Shown here: positions 5,123 through 23,177 of the stretch, piece after piece
Numbering within the stretch: the stretch's first letter is position 1
Layout of the letters: every line of letters begins with the position of its first letter
Origin: Bacteroidota bacterium
Lineage (GTDB): Bacteria; Bacteroidota; Bacteroidia; Chitinophagales; Saprospiraceae
Direction: 5' to 3'
DNA length: 41,198 nucleotides
Assembly (NCBI GenBank): GCA_016234735.1
Contig: JACRAN010000105.1
Coordinates: 1-41,198, forward strand
The notes under the pieces: generated by a model
Seen by the model: only the letters and a program-made list of their open reading frames with translations
Told to the model about the DNA's origin: nothing
Databases searched by the model: none
Translations under genes and position numbers: made by a program

Positions 5123-5410
5123 ATGGCCAGTACTTCAGAAACCGGCAACGCCCGGAACATCTCCAACTTCCAGTCCCTCATCAACTCCTGCACCGGATTC
5201 GGTGCGCCGTACCAACCTTCCGAAACCAGGCTGAAATTGCCTGCCCTCAACACGCAGCACACCGCCTGAGCCGCCGGACAGGCAGCCGTGGTGACGCCGC
5301 TGGCGGACTACAACAAGACCGTGTCGGAACGAAAGGCGCTCTACGCACCATTGGACGGCCTCGTGACCCGTCTCCAAGAGGTTTCACCTTTGCCATTTTT
5401 GGGCAGTTAA
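5123..5410 (+). pseudogene. Broken small Bacteroidota protein gene with in-frame stop
   Basis: The frame from ATG 5123 (MASTSETGNARNISNF...) resembles a roughly 100-residue protein of unknown function common in Bacteroidota that begins MASTSETGHAKN. An in-frame TGA at 5267-5269 follows codon 48. The same frame then continues with family-like sequence (LADYNKTVSERKALYAPLDGLVTR) to a TAA at 5408. After DGLVTR the expected C-terminal part is replaced by an unrelated short tail. One nonsense change plus a replaced end make this a decayed gene. A sequencing error could explain the stop but not the lost tail. Confidence 0.6.
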
Positions 5411-6810
5411 ATATGCAGCGCCCGGTCCCCCGTAGCCGCCAGCGCCGCTTCCCGGATGGCCTCCGCATACGTCGGGTGGGCGTGGCTCATGCGGGCGCAG
5501 TCCTCCGCCGATGCCCGGAACTCCATGAGGGTCACGGCATCCGCAATCAAATCCGCTGCACGGGCACAGACCATGTGTACGCCAAGTATTTCGTCGGTGT
5601 CTCGGTGGGCGAGTATTTTCACCATGCCCTCTGTGTCGGTGCTGGCGCGGGCACGGCCCAGCGCCTTCATCGGGAACTTGCCGGTTTTGTACGGCACACC
5701 CGCTTCCTTGAGTTGCTCCTCCGTCTGGCCGACGCTGGCCACTTCCGGCCAGGTATAGACCACGCCGGGGATGAGGTTGTAGTCGATGTGCGGCTGCTGA
5801 CCGGCGATGGTTTCGGCCACGAACACGCCTTCGTCCTCGGCCTTGTGCGCCAGCATGGCACCCTGCACCACGTCGCCGATGGCGTAGATGCCGGGCACGT
5901 TGGTTTGCAGGTGATTGTCAACTGAGATTCTGCCTTTCTCGTCTTTTTGGATGCCGATGTTTTCCAGGCCCAAGTTGTCGGTGTAGGGCCTGCGGCCAAT
6001 GGCCACGAGGCAGTAGTCGGCTTCGAGGTTGAATGTTGAGTCGCTGTCCCGCTTCTGCACTTCCACCGTCACGCCTTTTTTGGTGGCCTTCACGGTGTTT
6101 ACTTTGTGTTTCAGGTGAAATTTCATCCCCAGGCCCTTCAGCGCCCGCTGGAGTTCCTTGCTGCAATCGCCGTCCATCGTGGCGATGATGCGGTCGAGGA
6201 ATTCCACCACCTCCACCTCGGTGCCGAGGCGGGCATACACCGAACCCAGTTCCAGCCCGATGACACCGCCGCCGATGATGACCATGCGCTTCGGCACAGC
6301 TTCGAGGTTGAGCGCCTCGGTGCTGGTAATGATGCGCTTTTTGTCGTAGTTGAAAGCCTCCGGCACGATGGGCTTGGAGCCGGTGGCAATGATAGTTTTG
6401 TCGGTTTCTATCTCCTGTTTCGTGCCATCGGCCTTTGCGATGCTGATTTTATGGGCGCTCACGAACGAACCATGTCCCATGAACACGTCAATCTTGTTTT
6501 TCTTCATCAAAAAATCGATGCCCTTCGTGGTCTGCTCCACCACGTCGTTTTTGCGCTTGACCATCTGCGGCAGGTTGACTTTCAGGCCAGTGATGCCGAT
6601 GCCGTGCAACTCGAATTTTTCTTTGGCATTGTGAAAATGTTCGGAACTGTCGAGCAGCGCTTTGGAGGGAATGCAGCCCACGTTGAGGCAGGTGCCGCCG
6701 AGCGTGTTGTAGCGTTCGATGATGGCGGTTTTGAGGCCCAACTGGGCGCACCGGATGGCGGCCACATAGCCGCCGGGGCCAGAGCCGATGACGGTAACGT
6801 CGTATTTCAT
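5407..6810 (-). CDS. lpdA: Dihydrolipoyl dehydrogenase (E3)
   Basis: A 467-residue flavoprotein that reoxidises the dihydrolipoyl arms of the 2-oxoacid dehydrogenase complexes using FAD and NAD+. An N-terminal FAD-binding GxGPGG motif (residues 9-14) precedes the redox-active disulphide in GGTCLNVGCIPSK (about residues 38-50), an NAD-binding GGGVIGLELGS motif near 175-185, AIGDV near 310, and the C-terminal dimer/active-site motif HAHPTYAE (His-Glu pair). Full length. It is last in a minus-strand run after ricT; the 72-base gap to ricT is filled by a word-repeat hairpin (6825-6880). No pyruvate or oxoglutarate dehydrogenase genes lie next to it here. Confidence 0.95.
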   Translation of the reverse strand: MKYDVTVIGSGPGGYVAAIRCAQLGLKTAIIERYNTLGGTCLNVGCIPSKALLDSSEHFHNAKEKFELHGIGITGLKVNLPQMVKRKNDVVEQTTKGIDFLMKKNKIDVFMGHGSFVSAHKISIAKADGTKQEIETDKTIIATGSKPIVPEAFNYDKKRIITSTEALNLEAVPKRMVIIGGGVIGLELGSVYARLGTEVEVVEFLDRIIATMDGDCSKELQRALKGLGMKFHLKHKVNTVKATKKGVTVEVQKRDSDSTFNLEADYCLVAIGRRPYTDNLGLENIGIQKDEKGRISVDNHLQTNVPGIYAIGDVVQGAMLAHKAEDEGVFVAETIAGQQPHIDYNLIPGVVYTWPEVASVGQTEEQLKEAGVPYKTGKFPMKALGRARASTDTEGMVKILAHRDTDEILGVHMVCARAADLIADAVTLMEFRASAEDCARMSHAHPTYAEAIREAALAATGDRALHI

Positions 6811-6824
6811 GTTGATAGTTTTGG

Positions 6825-6880
6825 GTTATGAGTTATGAGTTATGAGTTGGGCCAGCCACTCATAACTTATAACTCATAAC
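6825..6880. repeat. Word-repeat inverted repeat (TTATGAG)
   Basis: The left arm 6825-6847 is three iterations of GTTATGA; the right arm 6858-6880 mirrors it with one mismatch in 23; the loop is 10 bases. The right arm ends 2 bases short of the ricT stop codon (6883-6885). There is no T-tract on either side. Confidence 0.8.
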
Positions 6881-6882
6881 TA

Positions 6883-8328
6883 TTATCCGCCACCTGGAGG
6901 ATTCCCACCGCCGGGCGGATTGCCGCCCCGGCCTCTGCCGCCTCTGCGGTTTTTGCCGCCACGGCCACGGTTGCGGCCACCACCCTCCTTGCGTTCGCCA
7001 GGCTGTGCCGGGGGCTGCTGGCCGGGTGGTTGGGGTTGCTGCGGCGTCGGGGTTTTGGCCTGTGGCGGGTTGCCGCTGGGGCGGCGGTCACGGTTGCGGT
7101 TGCCGCCGTCTCTCTTCTCGGAGGGTTGGCCGTCGCCTGCCTGGCTTTCGGGCCTGGCGTCGCGGTGCCTGCCGTCGCCACCGCGTTCGTTGGGTTTTTT
7201 CTTTTTCTTTTTCTTGCGGCGCTCGTCCATTGGCAGTTCGATGACACCGGTCACGTCACTTGGCCCGAAGTCAGGTTCAGCCTCTCCGGGGAGCTGATCT
7301 GCAACTACCTGTAAATCAGCCAAATCAGCCGGAAACTCACCCCGCAGGTTTTTGTCCCTGACCGAGCGCACCTGCTTGAGGTCGAGGGCGTACATGCGGC
7401 CCCGGCCATGGTCTTTTTCATAGCCGTAGTACATCAGGCCCTTGAAAATATCGGTCTTCACCAAAACTGCAACGCCCAGTTCGGTTTTCAATTTCTCCGC
7501 ATCTTCGGGGAAGTTGGAGAGCGCCTCCATGTAGGTATCCAACTCGTAGTTCAGGCAGCATTTCAGACGACCGCACTGTCCGGATAATTTAGCCTGGTTG
7601 ATGGCGAGGTTCTGGTAGCGGGCCGCCGCCGTGGATACGGTGCGGTATGAAGTCAGCCAGGTCGAGCAACAAAGTTCCCGGCCACAAGGGCCGATGCCGC
7701 CTATCCGCCCTGCTTCCTGCCGGGCACCGATTTGGCGCATCTCGATTTTCACCTTGAACTCCTTCGCAAACTGCCGGATGAGGTCCCGAAAGTCAATCCT
7801 GCCATCGGCGGTGTAGTAGAACGTGGCTTTTTTGCCATCGCCCTGAATTTCCACATCGCCGATTTTCATGTTCAGTTTGAGGGTGCGGGAAATGGCACGG
7901 GCACGCACCATCGCATCTATCTCGGTCTTGCGCACTTCGTCCAATTTTTCCAGGTCACGCTCGTTCGCCTTGCGGATGACTTTCGGGAAAAAACCGTCCT
8001 GCGGCACCCGCTTTTTCCGCATTTGCAGGCGCACCAGTTCGCCGGAGAGCGAGATGCGCCCCACGTCGCAACCTGCCTGCGTGTCCACCACCACCATGTC
8101 GCCGGTGGTAGTGCGGGTGTACGGCTGGTTGAAATAGAATGCCTTGCGGGAACCGTTTTTGAAGCTCACTTCCACGACGTGGAAAGGCTCCACGTCTTCG
8201 ATTTCCATGGTGGTGAGCCAGTCGTAGGTATTGAGCCGGTTGCAGCCGCCTGAACCGCAACTGCCTTTGCTCTGGCACCCGGAAGGTGCGCCGTCTTTCG
8301 TGCTGACCGAACATCCTGCACATGCCAT
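6883..8328 (-). CDS. ricT: RicT-like PSP1-domain protein (iron-sulphur complex subunit)
   Basis: A 481-residue member of the PSP1/RicT (YaaT) family. The N-terminus is Cys-rich (CAGCS...GSCGSGGC), followed by the PSP1 domain with the hallmark clusters GPCGRELCCSTWL and CGRLKCCLNYE near residues 215-265. In Bacillus, RicT works with RicA and RicF in an Fe-S complex that guides RNase Y processing; RNase Y is encoded in this window at 17.7 kb. From about residue 390 the protein becomes a low-complexity tail rich in Gly, Arg, Asn, Pro and Lys (about 90 residues), likely disordered and perhaps RNA-binding. Co-directional with holB, a common arrangement in Bacteroidota. Confidence 0.9.
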   Translation of the reverse strand: MACAGCSVSTKDGAPSGCQSKGSCGSGGCNRLNTYDWLTTMEIEDVEPFHVVEVSFKNGSRKAFYFNQPYTRTTTGDMVVVDTQAGCDVGRISLSGELVRLQMRKKRVPQDGFFPKVIRKANERDLEKLDEVRKTEIDAMVRARAISRTLKLNMKIGDVEIQGDGKKATFYYTADGRIDFRDLIRQFAKEFKVKIEMRQIGARQEAGRIGGIGPCGRELCCSTWLTSYRTVSTAAARYQNLAINQAKLSGQCGRLKCCLNYELDTYMEALSNFPEDAEKLKTELGVAVLVKTDIFKGLMYYGYEKDHGRGRMYALDLKQVRSVRDKNLRGEFPADLADLQVVADQLPGEAEPDFGPSDVTGVIELPMDERRKKKKKKKPNERGGDGRHRDARPESQAGDGQPSEKRDGGNRNRDRRPSGNPPQAKTPTPQQPQPPGQQPPAQPGERKEGGGRNRGRGGKNRRGGRGRGGNPPGGGNPPGGG

Positions 8329-8342
8329 GTTTGAGGGTTTGA

Positions 8343-8404
8343 GATTTTGAGGGTTTGATGGTTTGAGGGCACGAACCGCCTCAAACCCTCAAACCCTCAA
8401 AATC
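8343..8404. repeat. Word-repeat inverted repeat (TTTGAGGG)
   Basis: The left arm 8343-8368 and right arm 8379-8404 match at 25 of 26 positions; the loop is 10 bases. The word TTTGAGG(G) is iterated; extra copies extend left to 8329. The right arm supplies the last codons and stop codon of holB (stop at 8389-8391), so the element is partly coding. The opposite end reaches the ricT start region. Confidence 0.8.
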
Positions 8405-9492
8405 TTGTTCAACTGTATCGACGCATCCAAAAAAAGCAGCTTCTGATTGGCGTTTCGTTCTATGAAATAGGTGCAATCGTTAAACAGCTTTGCAATGCGT
8501 TCGATTTGCCCGAAACCAATGATTTTACTCAGGTTCTGGGCAGTTTTCAGTTCCTCCGGCAGCAGCCTTATCTGCGTGTTGCCGGTGGTTTTCAGTATCA
8601 TGTACTCCCGCATGAAATGCAGGCCGTACAGTAAAAATTGCTTCTGGTTCTCCCGGCCCAGGTCGGTGAACGTTTCCGTCCAGGCCGACATTTCCACGCC
8701 GTTGCCCTGGTAGCATTTCCGCATCCAGTCGAGGAAGAGCGCCGAGTTGTCCTTCTCCGGCTGGGCGGCGATGTTCAGGGCTTCATTGAAATCCCCTCCC
8801 GCCAAATGGGCGATGGGGCGGGCTTTTTCGGGCGGCAGTTGCTTCCGTTCCACCAGCCCCTGCTCCACTTCCCCGTCGGTCAGCCGGTTGACTTTGACCA
8901 ACTGGCACCTCGACAGGATGGTGGGCAAAATCAACTCCTGGTTTTGCGCCACGAGGAGGAAAAGCGTGTCGTCGGGCGGTTCCTCGATGAGCTTCAGCAG
9001 GCGGTTGCCCTCCTTGCCGAGGTACTCCGGCAGCCACATCACCAGGATTTTGTAGCGGCCTTCGAAGGCTTTGAAACTCAGCTTCCGAATGATGCTCACG
9101 CACTCCTCCTTGTTGATGTTGCCCTGTTTGTTTTCCGCCCCGATGCGCTGCAACCACTGGTTAACGTCAAGGTACGGGTTTTCGGCGAAAGCCGCCCGCC
9201 ACTCCGGCAGGTGGGCATCGCTGGTCACGTTCGTACCCACGGTCGGGAAGGAAAAATGCAGGTCGGGGTGTACCAATTTCTCCGCCTTGCTACAGTTGTC
9301 GCAAATGCCGCAGGCTTCACCGTCCTGCTTGTTTTGACAAAGAACATACTGCGCAAACGCCAGCGCCAGCGCCAGGTCGCCGCTGCCCGGTGCCCCCAAA
9401 AGCATGAGGGCGTGTGGGGTGCGTTCCCCGTCCGCCATCCGCCGCAGCAGGGCTTTGGCAGGGGATTGACCAATCACAGAACGGAACTGCAT
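8389..9492 (-). CDS. holB: DNA polymerase III delta' subunit
   Basis: A 367-residue clamp-loader ATPase-fold subunit. MQFRSVIGQSPAKALLRRM begins the normal domain, so ATG 9492 is chosen over an upstream in-frame ATG at 9579 whose extra residues come from a repeat element. A degenerate P-loop GAPGSGDLAL is followed by the four-Cys zinc module (VLCQNK...ACGICDNC). The lid/sensor region includes LLKLIEEPPDDTLFLL and LPTILSRCQLV (the SRC motif). Its last residues (ILRV) and stop come from the arm of the inverted repeat at 8343-8404. It acts in the replisome to load the sliding clamp. Confidence 0.9.
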   Translation of the reverse strand: MQFRSVIGQSPAKALLRRMADGERTPHALMLLGAPGSGDLALALAFAQYVLCQNKQDGEACGICDNCSKAEKLVHPDLHFSFPTVGTNVTSDAHLPEWRAAFAENPYLDVNQWLQRIGAENKQGNINKEECVSIIRKLSFKAFEGRYKILVMWLPEYLGKEGNRLLKLIEEPPDDTLFLLVAQNQELILPTILSRCQLVKVNRLTDGEVEQGLVERKQLPPEKARPIAHLAGGDFNEALNIAAQPEKDNSALFLDWMRKCYQGNGVEMSAWTETFTDLGRENQKQFLLYGLHFMREYMILKTTGNTQIRLLPEELKTAQNLSKIIGFGQIERIAKLFNDCTYFIERNANQKLLFLDASIQLNKILRV

Positions 9493-9530
9493 GGGCGTTT
9501 CATCAATTGCTTTTGGTGAGTGCCTGGTAT

Positions 9531-9645
9531 TTGATTGACGATTGACGATTACATGATTGTTGATGGCTTTCATAGTCAATCAAAATTGCTACATCATCCA
9601 TCACATCAAATATCAACAATCATGTAATCGACAATCGTCAATCAA
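9531..9645. repeat. Word-repeat inverted repeat (ATTGACG), longest arms
   Basis: Arms of 34 bases (9531-9564 and 9612-9645) differ at one position; the loop is 47 bases. The left arm has TTGACGA iterated, then ATTACATGATTGTTGAT. The right arm ends 3 bases short of the gpx stop codon (9649-9651), on the upstream side of holB. Confidence 0.85.
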
Positions 9646-9648
9646 GAC

Positions 9649-10111
9649 TCAAACATTTAACCAACCAAGAATGTCATCATCGAAGGGACTAACGGAAGTC
9701 TGGATGCAGCGGGCGAGGCGGCCCTGTTCGTCGAGGAGGTGCTTTTGAAAATTCCAGGTGACCTGGCTGTCGAGGACACCATTGAGCGCCTTTTGTGTGA
9801 GCCATTGGTAAACCGGGTGGGTGCCCACGTCCACCTTCGCTGCGAGCGGAAAGGTGACGCTGTATCGCCGGGTGTTGTGCTTGAATTTCCTGGTTCGCTC
9901 CCGGCTCCTGCCCTCCGAAATCATTGGCAGGAAAGCCCACTATTGCTAATTTATTTCCAAACTCCTCGTACAATTCCTGCAATTGCTGGTGTGGCGTGTG
10001 ACCGCACTCGGAAGCAACATTGACCACCATTATTTTTTTGCCTGCAAAAGCGGCAAAATCAATTTCCTCGCTTGCTATTCCTGTTGCTTTGAACGAATGA
10101 ATTGTATCCAC
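9649..10111 (-). pseudogene. Glutathione peroxidase-family gene, frameshifted
   Basis: Two overlapping frames together make one thiol-peroxidase of the GPx family. The first, from ATG 10111, has the peroxidatic Cys36 in NVASECGHTP and the GFPANDFGGQEPG motif. The second frame continues YSVTFPL...THPVYQWL and VTWNFQKHLLD (the Trp and Asn of the active site) to the stop at 9649. Between the Ile of NQEI and the Tyr of YSV there are 19 bases where the family needs 21, so about two bases are missing (about 9866-9886). All active-site segments are otherwise present; the Gln position of other GPx is Asp, as is usual in Bacteroidota. A recent mutation or an assembly error are both possible. A TACCTTTG -7 box lies at 10146-10153. 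Confidence 0.75.
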
Positions 10112-10165
10112 CTTTCCGTTGTCCCTGATAAATTCCGGAACCCGCCAAAGGTAAGAAGGATTTGC

Positions 10166-10235
10166 GATTTACGATTTACGATTTTGGATTTACGAATGCG
10201 CCCAATCGTAAATCCAAAATCGTAAATCCAAAATC
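10166..10235. repeat. Word-repeat inverted repeat (ATTTACG/ATTTTGG)
   Basis: Arms of 30 bases (10166-10195, 10206-10235) match at 28 positions; the loop is 10 bases. Words GATTTACG and GATTTTGG alternate. The right arm runs into the stop codon of the LytTR gene (10234-10236); the left end lies 12 bases from the -7 box upstream of gpx. Confidence 0.8.
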
Positions 10236-10965
10236 ACAGTTCCCGTTTCCACAACCTCCCGGCAATGAGGGTGTTGAAAATCAACTCCTGCAAGCTGCGG
10301 CTCACAGGTATCCGCTTGTTTTTGATGACGAGGTTACTGCCGTCCACGAGGTCAACTTTGTCGAGGGAAACGAGGAAGGAGCGGTGTACCCGCAGGAATC
10401 TTTCCGAAGGGAGTTCTTTCTCTAACTGCTTGAGTGACAGCAAAGTAAGGTAGCGTTTTTGCTCGGTGTAAATGAAAACGTAATCCTTTTCGCTTTCAAA
10501 ATACAGCACGTCGGCGAGCTTGATCCTGATGAACTGGCCGTCGCTTTTGATGAAAAAATACTCCGGCCCGACTACCTCGGCGGGCTTGGGCGCTGGCTGA
10601 CGTTGCATCTCGAAAAACGACTGTGCCTTGTTCGCCGCCTTCAAAAACCGCTGGAACGAAATCGGCTTCACGAGGTAGTCGAGCGCATTCAACTCGAAGC
10701 CTTCGATGGCGTAGTCGCGGTAGGCGGTGGTGAAAATGGTGGCCGGTGGGTTTTCCAGCGAGCGAAGGAAGTCGATGCCGGTGATGTCCGGCATTTGAAT
10801 GTCGAGGAAAAGCAGGTCGATTTTTTCACGGTGCAACACCTCGTTGGCTTCGAGGGCGCTTTTGCAGGTGCCTTCCAGCGAGAGGAACGGCGTTTGCGCC
10901 ACATACCCGGCTATGCCCTTCCGGGCAACGGGTTCGTCGTCAACAACCAAGCATTTCAGAATCAT
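10234..10965 (-). CDS. LytTR-family response regulator
   Basis: A 243-residue regulator. The receiver domain has the acidic pair in VVDDEP (D9, D10), the phospho-acceptor Asp55 in LLFLDIQMPD and the conserved Lys in DYLVKPI near 102. The C-terminal LytTR DNA-binding domain (about 135-240) includes YFFIKSDGQFIRIKLADVLYFES and the basic FLRVHRSFLVSLDKV motif. It overlaps the upstream histidine kinase gene by four bases (ATGA), so the two are translationally coupled. The target genes are unknown; no kinase-regulated operon is evident beside it. The stop codon sits in a word-repeat hairpin. Confidence 0.95.
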   Translation of the reverse strand: MILKCLVVDDEPVARKGIAGYVAQTPFLSLEGTCKSALEANEVLHREKIDLLFLDIQMPDITGIDFLRSLENPPATIFTTAYRDYAIEGFELNALDYLVKPISFQRFLKAANKAQSFFEMQRQPAPKPAEVVGPEYFFIKSDGQFIRIKLADVLYFESEKDYVFIYTEQKRYLTLLSLKQLEKELPSERFLRVHRSFLVSLDKVDLVDGSNLVIKNKRIPVSRSLQELIFNTLIAGRLWKREL

Positions 10966-13871: not shown

Positions 13872-13930
13872 GGTATTGGGAATTGGGTATTAGGAATTCA
13901 GAAAATACCTAATACCCAATTCCCAATACC
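13872..13930. repeat. Word-repeat inverted repeat (TTGGGTA) between divergent genes
   Basis: Arms 13872-13898 and 13904-13930 match at 26 of 27 positions; the loop is five bases. Words GGTATTGG and GAATTGGG are iterated. It ends 18 bases before the phosphoesterase start codon, in the presumed promoter or leader of that gene. Confidence 0.85.
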
Positions 13931-13948: not shown

Positions 13949-14698
13949 ATGAAACTTGTTCAAATTACGGACCTGCACGTTGCCGAGGAGGGCGAGTTCA
14001 CACACGGGGTGGACGTGCGGCAGAATTTTTTGGACATCCTGCAAGCCGCCAAATCCGCCGCACCCGACCTGCTCGTACTCTCCGGCGACCTGTGCTACGA
14101 TACTGCCAACGAGGAAGTTTACCAGTGGATGAAATCGCAACTCGATGCCCTGGCGGTTCCCTACGCCGTCATTTCCGGCAACCACGATACCCCCGAAGTG
14201 CTGGCAAAAAATTTCAACCTGGGGCACCTGCTCACCAACGGCGAATTGTACTACAAACTGCCCGTGGGCCGCCACAGCCTGCTGTTCCTCGAAACTTCCA
14301 TCGGCACCATTTCCGAAGGGCAACTTGACTGGCTGGCGCAGGAACTTGTCCTCCTGGACAAGAACGCCATCGTTTTCATGCACCACCCGCCGGTGCCTGG
14401 CGGCGTGCCCTACATGGATGTCAACTACCCGCTGCGCAACATGGCCGCCGTGCAGGAGGTTTTTTTCAAATTCCCGCACCAGGTGTCCGTTTTTTGCGGG
14501 CACTACCACGTCGAAAAAACGCTGTGCGTGAAAAACCTGACCGTTCACATCACGCCGTCCACCTATTTTCAAATCAATTGGCGCGGGGAGGCTTTCCAAG
14601 TTGACCACTACCGCCCTGCCCTGCGGGAAATCAACCTTCGACCAGATGGCATCATTGAAAGCGCGGTCGTGTATTTTGACAGAAATAAAACTGAATAA
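13949..14698 (+). CDS. Metallophosphoesterase, CpdA-like
   Basis: A 249-residue calcineurin-like phosphoesterase with the whole metal set: D8 and H10 (ITDLH), GD at 46-47, GNHD 77-80, HH at 145-146 (FMHHPP) and GHYH 184-187. Size and motif spacing match class III cyclic-nucleotide phosphodiesterases of the CpdA type, but these motifs do not fix the substrate. The stop codon TAA abuts the aminotransferase ATG directly, so the two genes are one transcript and probably coupled. Confidence 0.85.
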   Translation: MKLVQITDLHVAEEGEFTHGVDVRQNFLDILQAAKSAAPDLLVLSGDLCYDTANEEVYQWMKSQLDALAVPYAVISGNHDTPEVLAKNFNLGHLLTNGELYYKLPVGRHSLLFLETSIGTISEGQLDWLAQELVLLDKNAIVFMHHPPVPGGVPYMDVNYPLRNMAAVQEVFFKFPHQVSVFCGHYHVEKTLCVKNLTVHITPSTYFQINWRGEAFQVDHYRPALREINLRPDGIIESAVVYFDRNKTE

Positions 14699-17622: not shown

Positions 17623-17668
17623 AAAAAACAAAGGCGACAGGATTTGCACCCTGCCGCCTTTGCTTTTT
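17623..17668. terminator. Bidirectional terminator between fadD and rny
   Basis: A 13-bp stem (17629-17641 with 17650-17662, one mismatch) with an 8-base loop has A-rich sequence on the left and a T-run on the right, fitting termination of both convergent genes. Confidence 0.85.
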
Positions 17669-20672: not shown

Positions 20673-23177
20673 TTAACGCCGAATAGCCGCCCCCAGTTTA
20701 CCCTCGAACGCCTCGATGAGTTCGTTCATCACGGCATCCACCTCCTTGTCCTGCAACGTCCGAGTGGGTTCTTCGAAGACGAAACTGACGGCGTAGGATT
20801 TTTTGCCCTCGCCCAACTTGGTTTCATCTTCAAAAACATCGAACAAATTTATATCTTTCAGCAGTTTCTTACCAACTTTTTTGGCAAGGGCGGCAAGGTC
20901 GCTAAATTTCACGGATTTTCCGATCACCACCGCCAAGTCCCTGCGCACCGTCGGGAACTTGCTCAACTCCACAAAGCTGATGGCTTGTTTTTTCACCGCT
21001 TGCAGCAGCAAATCCCAGTTGAAATCGGCATAAAAAACCTCGCTGCGGATGCCCATTTTTTTACAGATTTTCGGCTGCACCTTCCCGAAAACCACCAACT
21101 CCTGTGTGCCCCGGTGGAATTTTGCGCCGTAGGCGAACACCTCGTCCTTCACTGCCGTCTCCTGGTACCCGCCACTCACCCCCAACCGGGCGAGCACGTT
21201 CACGGCAAGCGATTTCAGCGTGAAAAAATCCGCCATCGTTTTCTCCGTGTTCCGCCAGCTTTCCGCCCAACGCTGCCCGGTCAGGAACAGCGCCAGATGC
21301 TGAGGCTCACTGTATTTCGGATTTCGGATTTCGGATTTCGGAAGAGCCGAGGAATCCTCCGAAATCCCAAATCCGAAATCCGAAATCGAGTACGTTTTGC
21401 CAAACTCGAACAACTTCAAGTCCGTCTGCTGGCGGTTCTGGTTGTGCGCCACCGCCTCCAGCCCGCTGAACAGCATCGTCGGTCGCATGATGTCCAACTG
21501 CACGTTCGAGGTGTTGTTGACGAAGACGAGTTCGCTGTCTTCCTTCGGTAAAATTTCTTTGTAAAACGCTGATTGCGAGAGCGATAGCGACATGGTTTCG
21601 TTGAAACCGTTCGCTGCAAGGTAGTCGCCGATGGCGTTGCGCACCTGGTTCGGGTCGGGGTACTCGTTGCGCACGATGCTGCTGCGGATTTGCGTCGGCA
21701 CCGGCACGTTGTCGAGGCCGTACACCCGCAGGATTTCCTCCACCACGTCCGCCGGGCGGGTCACGTCGGCCTTGTTGGTCGGTACGCTGACCGCCAGCGA
21801 ACTGCCCGTTTCCTCCACGATGGCCATGCCGAGCGCCGAGAGGATTTCCTTGATTTTTTCCTGCGGAATCACTGCACCGATGAGCGCCTGGATGTAGGCG
21901 TAAGTGACTTTAACTTGCTTATTATCAATGGGTTTTGGGTAAATATCGACCACCTCCGAGGCGATGGTGCCCCCACCGATTTCCACCATCAATTGGGCGG
22001 CCCGTTGCAGGGCGAACACGCAGCCGTTCGGGTCGCTGCCCTTCTCGAACGTGCGGGCGGCATCGGTGCGCAGGTCGTGGCGGGTGCTGGTACGGCGGAT
22101 GGATTTGGCGTTGAAATGGGCGCTTTCGAGGAAAATATTTTTGGTCGTGTCCTTCACGCCCGACCCGATGCCACCGAACACCCCGCCGATGCACATGCCC
22201 TGCGAGTTGCCGTCGCAAATCATCAGGTCTTCGGCGTGGAGGCTGCGTTCCTGGTCGTCGAGGGTGCGGAATTTGGTGCCGGCAGGCAGGTTTTTCACGA
22301 TGATTTTCCGCCCGGCGATTTCATCCAAATCGAAGGCGTGCAGCGGCTGCCCCAACTCGTGCAGCACGAAGTTCGTGATGTCCACGATGTTGTTGATGGG
22401 CCGCTGCCCGATGGAAAGCAGCCGTTTTTTCAACCACTCCGGCGACTCACCCACCGTCACACCCTGGATGCTCACACCGGCGTAGCGGGGGCAGGCCTCA
22501 GTGTTTTCGACCACCACTGAAACGGGGATGAGGGATGAGGGATGAGGGGTGAGGGATTCAACGCTCGGCATTTTTACGCCGCCTTTTTGCCCATACTGCA
22601 CTTGCAGCGCTGCCGCCAAATCCTTCGCCACGCCAACATGGCAGGTGGCGTCGGAGCGGTTGGGGGTCAAGCCAATTTCGTAAATTACGTCCGTTTCGAT
22701 GTTAAAGTATTCCTTGGCCGACTGGCCAATGGGCGTTTCGGCGGGCAGCACGAGGATGCCGCTGTGGTCGTCGCCGATGCCGAGTTCGTCGGCTGCGCAA
22801 ATCATCCCCTGCGATTCTTCGCCCCTGATTTTGCCCAATTTCAGCGTCAGCGGTTCCCCGCCCGTAGGATACAACGTAGTGCCGATGGTGGCCACCAGCA
22901 CCTTCTGCCCGGCGGCCACGTTGGGCGCTCCGCAAACGATTTGCAGCAAGCCGCCCAAGCCGACATCAACTTTCGTAAGGCTGAGTTTGTCGGCGTTCGG
23001 GTGCCGCCAGCACTCCTTCACTTGCCCGACCACTACGCCAGCGAGGCCGCCCTTGATGCTTTCCACCTCCTCCATGCCCTCCACTTCGAGGCCGAGGCTC
23101 GTGAGCAGGTTCGAGATTTCATCGGGCGGCAGGTTGATGTCGATGTATTCTTTGAGCCAGTTGAGCGAAATGGTCAT
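20673..23177 (-). CDS. pheT: Phenylalanine--tRNA ligase beta subunit
   Basis: An 834-residue beta subunit. It has the B1 and tRNA-binding domain at the start (SLNWLKEYIDINLPPDEISNLLTSLGLEVEG), a core B3/B4 region with INNIVDITNFVLHELGQPLHAFDLD, a B5 region, and the anticodon-binding FDX domain at the end (SKFPTVRRDLAVVIGKSVKFSDLA). ATG 23177 gives MTISLNWLKEYI, the family start; a longer in-frame version adds 23 residues from the leader. Two stretches are repeat-encoded: one about 55 residues before the B5/FDX part (DNA 21314-21386, SISDFGFGISEDSSALPKSE) and one near residue 212 (22525-22556, LTPHPSSLIP). They look like in-frame insertions in loops. A -7-like TATCTTTG lies at 23198-23205. Confidence 0.95.
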   Translation of the reverse strand: MTISLNWLKEYIDINLPPDEISNLLTSLGLEVEGMEEVESIKGGLAGVVVGQVKECWRHPNADKLSLTKVDVGLGGLLQIVCGAPNVAAGQKVLVATIGTTLYPTGGEPLTLKLGKIRGEESQGMICAADELGIGDDHSGILVLPAETPIGQSAKEYFNIETDVIYEIGLTPNRSDATCHVGVAKDLAAALQVQYGQKGGVKMPSVESLTPHPSSLIPVSVVVENTEACPRYAGVSIQGVTVGESPEWLKKRLLSIGQRPINNIVDITNFVLHELGQPLHAFDLDEIAGRKIIVKNLPAGTKFRTLDDQERSLHAEDLMICDGNSQGMCIGGVFGGIGSGVKDTTKNIFLESAHFNAKSIRRTSTRHDLRTDAARTFEKGSDPNGCVFALQRAAQLMVEIGGGTIASEVVDIYPKPIDNKQVKVTYAYIQALIGAVIPQEKIKEILSALGMAIVEETGSSLAVSVPTNKADVTRPADVVEEILRVYGLDNVPVPTQIRSSIVRNEYPDPNQVRNAIGDYLAANGFNETMSLSLSQSAFYKEILPKEDSELVFVNNTSNVQLDIMRPTMLFSGLEAVAHNQNRQQTDLKLFEFGKTYSISDFGFGISEDSSALPKSEIRNPKYSEPQHLALFLTGQRWAESWRNTEKTMADFFTLKSLAVNVLARLGVSGGYQETAVKDEVFAYGAKFHRGTQELVVFGKVQPKICKKMGIRSEVFYADFNWDLLLQAVKKQAISFVELSKFPTVRRDLAVVIGKSVKFSDLAALAKKVGKKLLKDINLFDVFEDETKLGEGKKSYAVSFVFEEPTRTLQDKEVDAVMNELIEAFEGKLGAAIRR
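21314..21386. repeat. Word-repeat inverted repeat (ATTTCGG) inside pheT
   Basis: Arms 21314-21342 and 21358-21386 match at 28 of 29 positions; the loop is 15 bases. The word ATTTCGG is iterated four times in the left arm. It is in frame with pheT and encodes about 24 residues at a loop of the protein. Confidence 0.85.
22525..22556. repeat. One-armed word repeat (GGGATGA) inside pheT
   Basis: GGGATGA(G) is iterated three times with a fourth degenerate copy (GGGGTGA). No mirrored arm is present nearby. In frame with pheT, encoding a Ser/Pro/His-rich stretch. Confidence 0.6.

Follow-up and report, generated by a model that had tools for sequence, protein, structure and literature searches.

In this study, a stretch of 41,198 nucleotides (hereafter, the window; G000:C12:1-41198) from a Saprospiraceae draft genome of 4.88 Mb in 359 contigs (G000), related through its RicT protein to Saprospiraceae metagenome-assembled genomes, was found to carry several members of a genome-wide class of hairpins whose arms are built from short, tandemly repeated words. 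These word hairpins are best read as dispersed palindromes, akin to repetitive extragenic palindromic (REP) elements, with arms of about four tandem words mostly of 7 or 8 nt that would be made and rewritten by replication slippage and template switching, a reading to which we give a probability of about 0.45. The initial annotation had placed inverted repeats in the gaps lpdA/ricT, ricT/holB, holB/gpx and gpx/lytTR (hairpins 1 to 4), and all four are present there, with one or two mismatches each. The arm lengths it reported were correct for the first, third and fourth (23, 34 and 30 nt), whereas the second arm measures 27 nt instead of 26. The distances to stop codons proved exact: hairpin 1 lies 2 nt from the ricT stop (and 14 nt from the lpdA start), hairpin 3 lies 3 nt from the gpx stop, hairpin 2 covers the last 17 nt of holB, stop included, and hairpin 4 overlaps the lytTR stop by 2 nt. 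The reported absence of a U-tract holds by eye for the four.

Word hairpins were defined as inverted repeats with internal word periodicity (self-match of at least 0.62), and inverted repeats were considered strong at a score of at least 16. A 572 kb sample of G000 contained 57 word hairpins, 11 of them inside open reading frames (ORFs), which corresponds by extrapolation to about 490 in the whole genome. The 309 gaps of at least 40 nt in this sample held 75 strong inverted repeats, whereas none of the 20 dinucleotide shuffles, made gap by gap, produced one, so that the expected excess over shuffled DNA was borne out; a 500 kb sample of the same genome gave 80 inverted repeats versus 0 in one shuffle. 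Given these shuffles, an origin by chance or by faulty assembly is highly improbable. Although the compared genomes are drafts in many contigs and two of the sampled inverted repeats reach the end of their contig (L012, L177), hairpins were seen in many separately assembled genomes, one of them lies in frame within an essential gene, and no inverted repeat scoring at least 16 was found in 107 kb of G005, a genome of the same genus.

The anatomy and position of the class were analysed in four genomes of the genus, which supplied 91 word hairpins. The median arm length is 26 nt (3.6 units) and the median loop length 16 nt; the period is 7 in 57 hairpins, 8 in 29, 9 in 3 and 10 in 2. The arms stay matched even though words differ between sites, as had been noticed in the window, and among the 87 hairpins with mixed words the word order of the two arms is in register in 84 and out of register in 3. 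Polarity is equally regular: the 5' arm has more G than C in 83 hairpins, less in 7 and the same in 1, versus 54:45 among other inverted repeats, and all 14 hairpins located in ORFs have a G-rich 5' arm. A palindrome reads alike on either strand, so the polarity belongs to the DNA element rather than to any single transcript. Unpaired arrays at most 30 nt from a gene edge direct their G-rich strand into the gap in 40 cases and away from it in 7 (20:5 after stops and 20:2 before starts), figures that refer to 57 single intergenic arrays, with arrays near two edges counted twice and 49 arrays inside genes left out.

No common family consensus was found among these hairpins, which use many words and mostly unshared loops. 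At least a dozen word types can be distinguished by eye in the G000 listing, and the loops of 11 ATTTCGG hairpins are unlike by eye, except for two that are alike within one ORF. The words nevertheless recur genome-wide, so that the initial proposal that each element has its own sequence rather than being a copy was not supported; hairpin 1 used as a query gave 63 matches in G000, at about 34 places including itself (hand count). Flank repeats of the kind left by target-site duplication were not in excess (4-mers in 5 of 88 cases versus 5.5 in shuffled pairs, 5-mers in 2 versus 2.0), and REP tags near the 5' edge were limited to GTAG in 3 of the 91 hairpins and CGTC in none. A nascent G-rich array that folds back and is copied would be expected to leave what is seen here: arms with the same word order, loops that are short and mostly unshared, no excess of flank repeats and a single polarity. 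A quadruplex function was rejected, as most arms lack the required G-tracts: four GGG tracts occur in 1 of 91 5' arms, and four runs of at least GG in 22.

Comparison of the same place in different species revealed hairpins built from other words. In the ricT/holB gap, a hairpin was detected in 10 of 12 genomes at a looser score of at least 11 and in 7 of 12 at a score of at least 16, being absent in G003 and G005; among the relatives alone, the stricter detector retrieved it in 6 of 11 and the looser one in 9 of 11. The word types at this position include TTTGAGGG, GAGAGCGTGA, AATTGAG, AAATTGGG, GAGGTGTGA and CGGTTGAC, and they differ even between the sister species G001/G004 (support 0.98), G010/G011 (1.0) and, in a weakly supported pair (0.51), G007/G012. 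Between G001 and G006, the hairpin arms in the gpx/lytTR gap have diverged at 18 of 33 positions, each difference being compensated, so that the predicted co-variation of arms between species was observed. Inside pheT, four ATTTCGG units are found in G000 and G012 and four ATTGCGG units in G006 and G007, while the units are mixed or decayed in G001, G004 and G009; G006 and G012 retain one arm only. Genome-wide, the ratio of threefold ATTTCGG to threefold ATTGCGG (overlapping counts) is 116:13 in G000, and it shifts towards ATTGCGG in G006 (9:35), G007 (25:35), G009 (10:22), G012 (11:20), G001 (4:8) and G013 (7:8), with G004 (5:2) and G008 (3:0) as exceptions.

Occupancy of gaps was less constant in general than at ricT/holB. 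Across 133 orthologous gap comparisons, which are not independent of one another, 11 hairpins were shared, 22 were present in G000 only (4 of these against G003 or G005) and 14 in the relative only (odds ratio 3.1, P 0.02), and a strong general conservation of position was rejected on these values. Heterogeneity of occupancy between gaps was pronounced (P 4e-6, from a table tallied by hand in which one total was entered as 11 instead of 12), some gaps being empty. Hairpins turn over fast, with ricT/holB as an exception among the gaps.

With respect to genes, 41 of the 91 hairpins lie in co-directional gaps, 17 in convergent gaps, 11 in divergent gaps, 14 in ORFs and 8 at contig edges. Coding regions are therefore under-represented, as 75-83% of the sampled DNA was called coding; genes were called with a purpose-built Markov caller, whose ricT start is misplaced and whose gpx call lacks the N-terminal part. 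The stop-codon anchoring envisaged initially was supported for the class when distances were tabulated. The hairpins in the 41 co-directional gaps lie a median of 6 nt from the upstream stop, versus 19 nt in simulations, none of which (0 of 2000) came as close. The next start codon lies at a median of 23 nt, compared with 104.5 for other inverted repeats, and 15 nt or less are left before it by 18 of 41 word hairpins versus 7 of 48 other inverted repeats, which leaves little room for a promoter. In G000, 10 hairpins were found in 7.1 kb of convergent gaps, 23 in 48.2 kb of co-directional gaps and 9 in 21.8 kb of divergent gaps, and by hand count 8 of the 10 convergent cases lie within 20 nt of, or overlap, both stops. 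Of the 58 word hairpins that lie in convergent or co-directional gaps, 5 have a U-tract, versus 23 of 66 other inverted repeats.

Hairpins inside genes keep the reading frame: all 46 segment lengths compared at six sites (pheT and five in L023), G000 included and one zero-length row dropped, are compatible with it. The G000 carriers include PheT, an SNF2 helicase, a glycosyltransferase (GT2), an FG-GAP protein and a TonB plug-domain protein. One in-frame site, L023 5538-5611, holds palindromes that differ by species, with ATTTCGG words in G000, the CCCCTGACCCCTAAAGGGG type in G004, a variant of that type in G008, and other palindromes in G001 and G007.

Under the preferred reading of slippage and template switching, arrays would lengthen through replication slippage, and the nascent G-rich strand would fold back and copy itself by template switching. 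A single event of this kind would yield a palindrome that is perfect, in register, short-looped and fixed in polarity, and the arms would be re-matched by later events. Conversion between copies, which is our guess, might spread and shift the words. Palindromes would then survive where harm is small, either just after stops or in protein linkers, provided that the words are mostly stop-free and the frame is kept. Template switching, one of the two origins suggested initially, is plausible, being consistent with register, loops and polarity. It has been described as making and re-matching perfect stems in RNA genes in one event (Monttinen and Loytynoja, 2022, PMC8794818); there, the events were deduced by ancestral reconstruction for RNA genes and not for tandem-word elements. 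A dedicated RNA role is not needed here, although some sites, ricT/holB for example, may exploit the stable stem carried by the mRNA. A further-reaching version, which we consider rather unlikely, holds that the palindromes rewrite themselves: a nascent G-rich strand process would make in-register word palindromes and re-copy arm onto arm, and at some gaps position and pairing would persist genus-wide while words are replaced in concert genome-wide, resulting in a species-specific hairpin dialect without any dedicated transposase or reverse transcriptase.

Several observations weigh against slippage and template switching. No mutation event has been observed directly, and insertion followed by deletion can mimic rewriting, since DNA within the genus is only 66-87% identical over its aligned parts. 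The reading does not by itself account for the spread of one word to dozens of places. Where a co-directional gap leaves 60 nt or more to spare, 7 of 15 hairpins (two of the 15 with a mis-called neighbour gene) are at most 15 nt from the stop and 2 are near the start, a stop bias that exceeds what harmlessness alone needs. The greater number of open frames in hairpins within ORFs (4.43 of 6, versus 1.43 outside, P 4e-6) is partly built in, because an in-ORF location requires an open frame. In addition, two length comparisons look like insertion. The ricT/holB gap measures 53-146 nt with a hairpin and 60 and 61 nt in the hairpin-free genomes. Of the 10 carriers, 8 have a longer gap (68-146 nt), while that of G000 is of the same length (60 nt) and that of G010 shorter (53 nt). 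Similarly, at the three in-gene sites with data, G000 is longer than G003/G005 (76 versus 25, 64 versus 16 and 73 versus 46 nt), although at pheT the word arrays of G006 and G012 occupy the hairpin-free length of 46 nt.

These lengths make mobile palindromes akin to REPs or Rickettsia palindromic elements and inserted by an enzyme, with survivors at gene ends and in linkers and with word families as subfamilies, a close and serious rival, though we regard it as the less probable account. Some REPs are partnered by a Y1 transposase, and the inserting enzyme would be of the type of such REP-associated tyrosine transposases (RAYTs) or another one. The location habits of the word hairpins resemble those of REPs, with 3' ends, convergent and co-directional gaps, supplied stops and in-ORF copies, tRNA synthetases included (PMC3733652). 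The HolB tail also behaves as if a new stop had been supplied: in the ten genomes with a hairpin the protein ends 1-3 residues beyond an aligned KILR, and in G003 and G005, which have none, 8 residues beyond an aligned KLFK, several outgroups also having longer tails. Because of these longer tails, a stop supplied by the element explains the echo of the words in holB equally well, and on this one gene the idea that the words derive from the final codons of the gene before them was rejected. Against insertion stand the variety of words, the mostly unshared loops, the lack of a flank-repeat excess and the scarcity of REP tags, as well as the distribution of candidate enzymes. Mobilisation by RAYT appears less likely, since Y1_Tnp matches occur in 12 of 14 genomes, the hairpin-poor G003 and G005 included, and do not visibly track hairpins. 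A reverse transcriptase or telomerase-like origin was rejected, as RVT_1 is absent from G000, G004, G006, G009 and G012, all hairpin carriers, though present in 7 of 14 genomes, among them the carriers G001, G007 and G008.

Selection for an RNA stem, acting as terminator or RNase barrier for the upstream mRNA, so that only pairing is selected, words drift and position is kept, appears an unlikely general explanation. The proximity to upstream stops, the density in convergent gaps and the filling of ricT/holB beside empty gaps are in its favour, as are the predicted stems: the minus strands of the four hairpins with short flanks fold at -29.7 to -54 kcal/mol (z -7.1 to -10.9), and 0 of 200 shuffles were as stable. 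However, 14 of 91 hairpins are inside ORFs, the next start codon is close, U-tracts are few, position is only modestly kept across gaps, and pairing leaves the G-rich 5' arm on both strands unexplained. The ORF copies, start spacing and polarity likewise weaken the action at mRNA 3' ends that had been proposed initially. A known RNA family was rejected in the window between 5000 and 22000, where an Rfam scan gave no match above the gathering score and sub-threshold matches were mostly miRNA models.

The features of the window are listed in the table below.

Table. Hairpins and neighbouring genes in the window.
Feature	Position	Strand	Words or Pfam domains	Arms, mismatches, loop	Location or remark
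Word hairpin 1	6825..6880		TTATGAG x3	23 nt, 1, 10 nt	lpdA/ricT gap
Word hairpin 2	8342..8405		TTTGAGGG	27 nt, 1, 10 nt	ricT/holB gap
Hairpin 3	9531..9645		ATTGACG words + ATTACATGATTGTTGAT	34 nt, 1, 47 nt	holB/gpx gap
Word hairpin 4	10166..10235		ATTTACG/ATTTTGG	30 nt, 2, 10 nt	gpx/lytTR gap
Fifth word hairpin	13872..13930		ATTGGGA/ATTGGGT/ATTAGGA		divergent gap
Sixth word hairpin	21314..21386		ATTTCGG x4		in frame inside pheT
lpdA	5407..6810	-	PF07992/PF02852		name from the initial annotation; domains agree
ricT (PSP1 domain)	6883..8328	-	PF04468		
holB (DNA polymerase III delta' type)	8389..9492	-	PF13177		start from gene caller
gpx (glutathione peroxidase)	9649..10111	-	PF00255 (9689-10111)		
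LytTR response regulator	10234..10965	-	PF04397/PF00072		

The fifth hairpin is located 18 nt before the start of a plus-strand gene at 13949. The sixth, if pheT starts at 23177, corresponds to about residues 598-622 of PheT and falls in its tRNA_synthFbeta domain (498-721). Hairpin 3, with a self-match of 0.59, falls below the word filter and is therefore outside the counts of 57 and 91. A near-identical 33-nt arm is present elsewhere in the genome (L021 7759-7915), an arm related to it occurs in the same gap of G001, and the three have longer loops (47, 91 and 80 nt); this type may represent a separate dispersed family. The gpx gene is split over two overlapping frames, each matching relatives, which points to either an assembly frameshift or a decayed gene. 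An ordinary terminator with A- and U-tracts, contrasting with the word hairpins, lies between convergent genes at 17623-17668 and is matched, tracts included, in G004 and G009.

The density of word hairpins varied widely between genomes. At a periodicity cut-off of 0.65, it reached 8.6 per 100 kb in the first 500 kb of G000, 4.9 in both G009 and G008, 2.5 in G004 and 0 in G005, and outside the genus 0.8 in G014 and 0 in G020. No word hairpin was found in G003 at the compared gaps. G003 and G005 are a sister pair of the same genus and offer a natural contrast for tracing the responsible factor. Among 80 named loci, nearly all from Bacteroidota (818 kb), 8 word hairpins were found, all in L057-L085, which are the 29 with the highest similarity to the query (L057 and L058 being apparently contigs of G004 and G012), and none in the scanned loci L086-L136. 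A similar hairpin (AACTAGGAATTAGGAAACTAG...) occurs outside the genus in a named strain, Neolewinella aurantiaca SSH13 (L085 969-1042), which is a possible experimental host. A plasmid search for the heptamers gave only partial matches, in Rhizobium and Serratia. Searches of the open-licence literature, most of which did not name the family, yielded no paper on such hairpins in Saprospiraceae and may miss older work such as that on cyanobacterial short tandemly repeated repetitive (STRR) sequences.

Perfect hairpins that change sequence while keeping their pairing are normally taken as proof of a selected RNA structure, but here the pairing may be kept by DNA copying instead. The signatures of polarity and word order make the copying model testable. 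The collection also calls for caution before such stems are labelled terminators or conserved RNAs.

Rickettsia palindromic elements (RPEs) are longer families with a consensus, whereas the word hairpins are word arrays without one. What the two share, together with the Wolbachia palindromic elements (WPEs), is the occurrence of palindromes inside conserved genes (PMC3733652). The same source supports the likeness to REPs and bacterial interspersed mosaic elements (BIMEs) of the GTAG and CGTC families, which are short palindromes at 3' ends that supply stops and have in-ORF copies; REPs, however, are marked by a stem shared within the family and a tag at one end (PMC3733652), whereas the word hairpins showed no common stem, no tag and no Y1 enzyme that visibly tracks them. 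The TAACTGA heptamers found in some Bacteroidetes and Cyanobacteria are likewise intergenic and near start or stop codons, but they consist of one word in direct repeats, with the inverted form in 1 of 170 sets of the most-studied genome (MacGregor, 2015, PMC4679880).

A further close resemblance is to the heptameric G-rich repeats of Xanthomonas and Nostoc, GGGAATC and GGGGA(C/T)T (Rehm et al., 2015, PMC4692102). Both have a 7-nt unit, a preference for four units, an intergenic location with coding regions under-represented, and overlap with stop codons, and in both the elements recur in corresponding gaps of different species with strong variation of length and sequence. The Xanthomonas and Nostoc repeats are found either on the sense strand, at most 50 bp from stops, or on the antisense strand ahead of ORFs, a strand rule that the single arrays described above also follow, both after stops and before starts. 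Inverted pairs occur there too and number 70 in Xcc and 75 in Xac and are few in Nostoc. That study reports one word type per lineage and invokes G-quadruplexes, whereas the Saprospiraceae genomes use many words each, pair them frequently in inverted orientation, have a single quadruplex-capable arm among the 91 and carry 14 of the 91 copies in frame within genes. The word hairpins connect the puzzling heptamers of Xanthomonas and cyanobacteria with a lineage of Bacteroidota whose elements have a clearer architecture, that of pairs.

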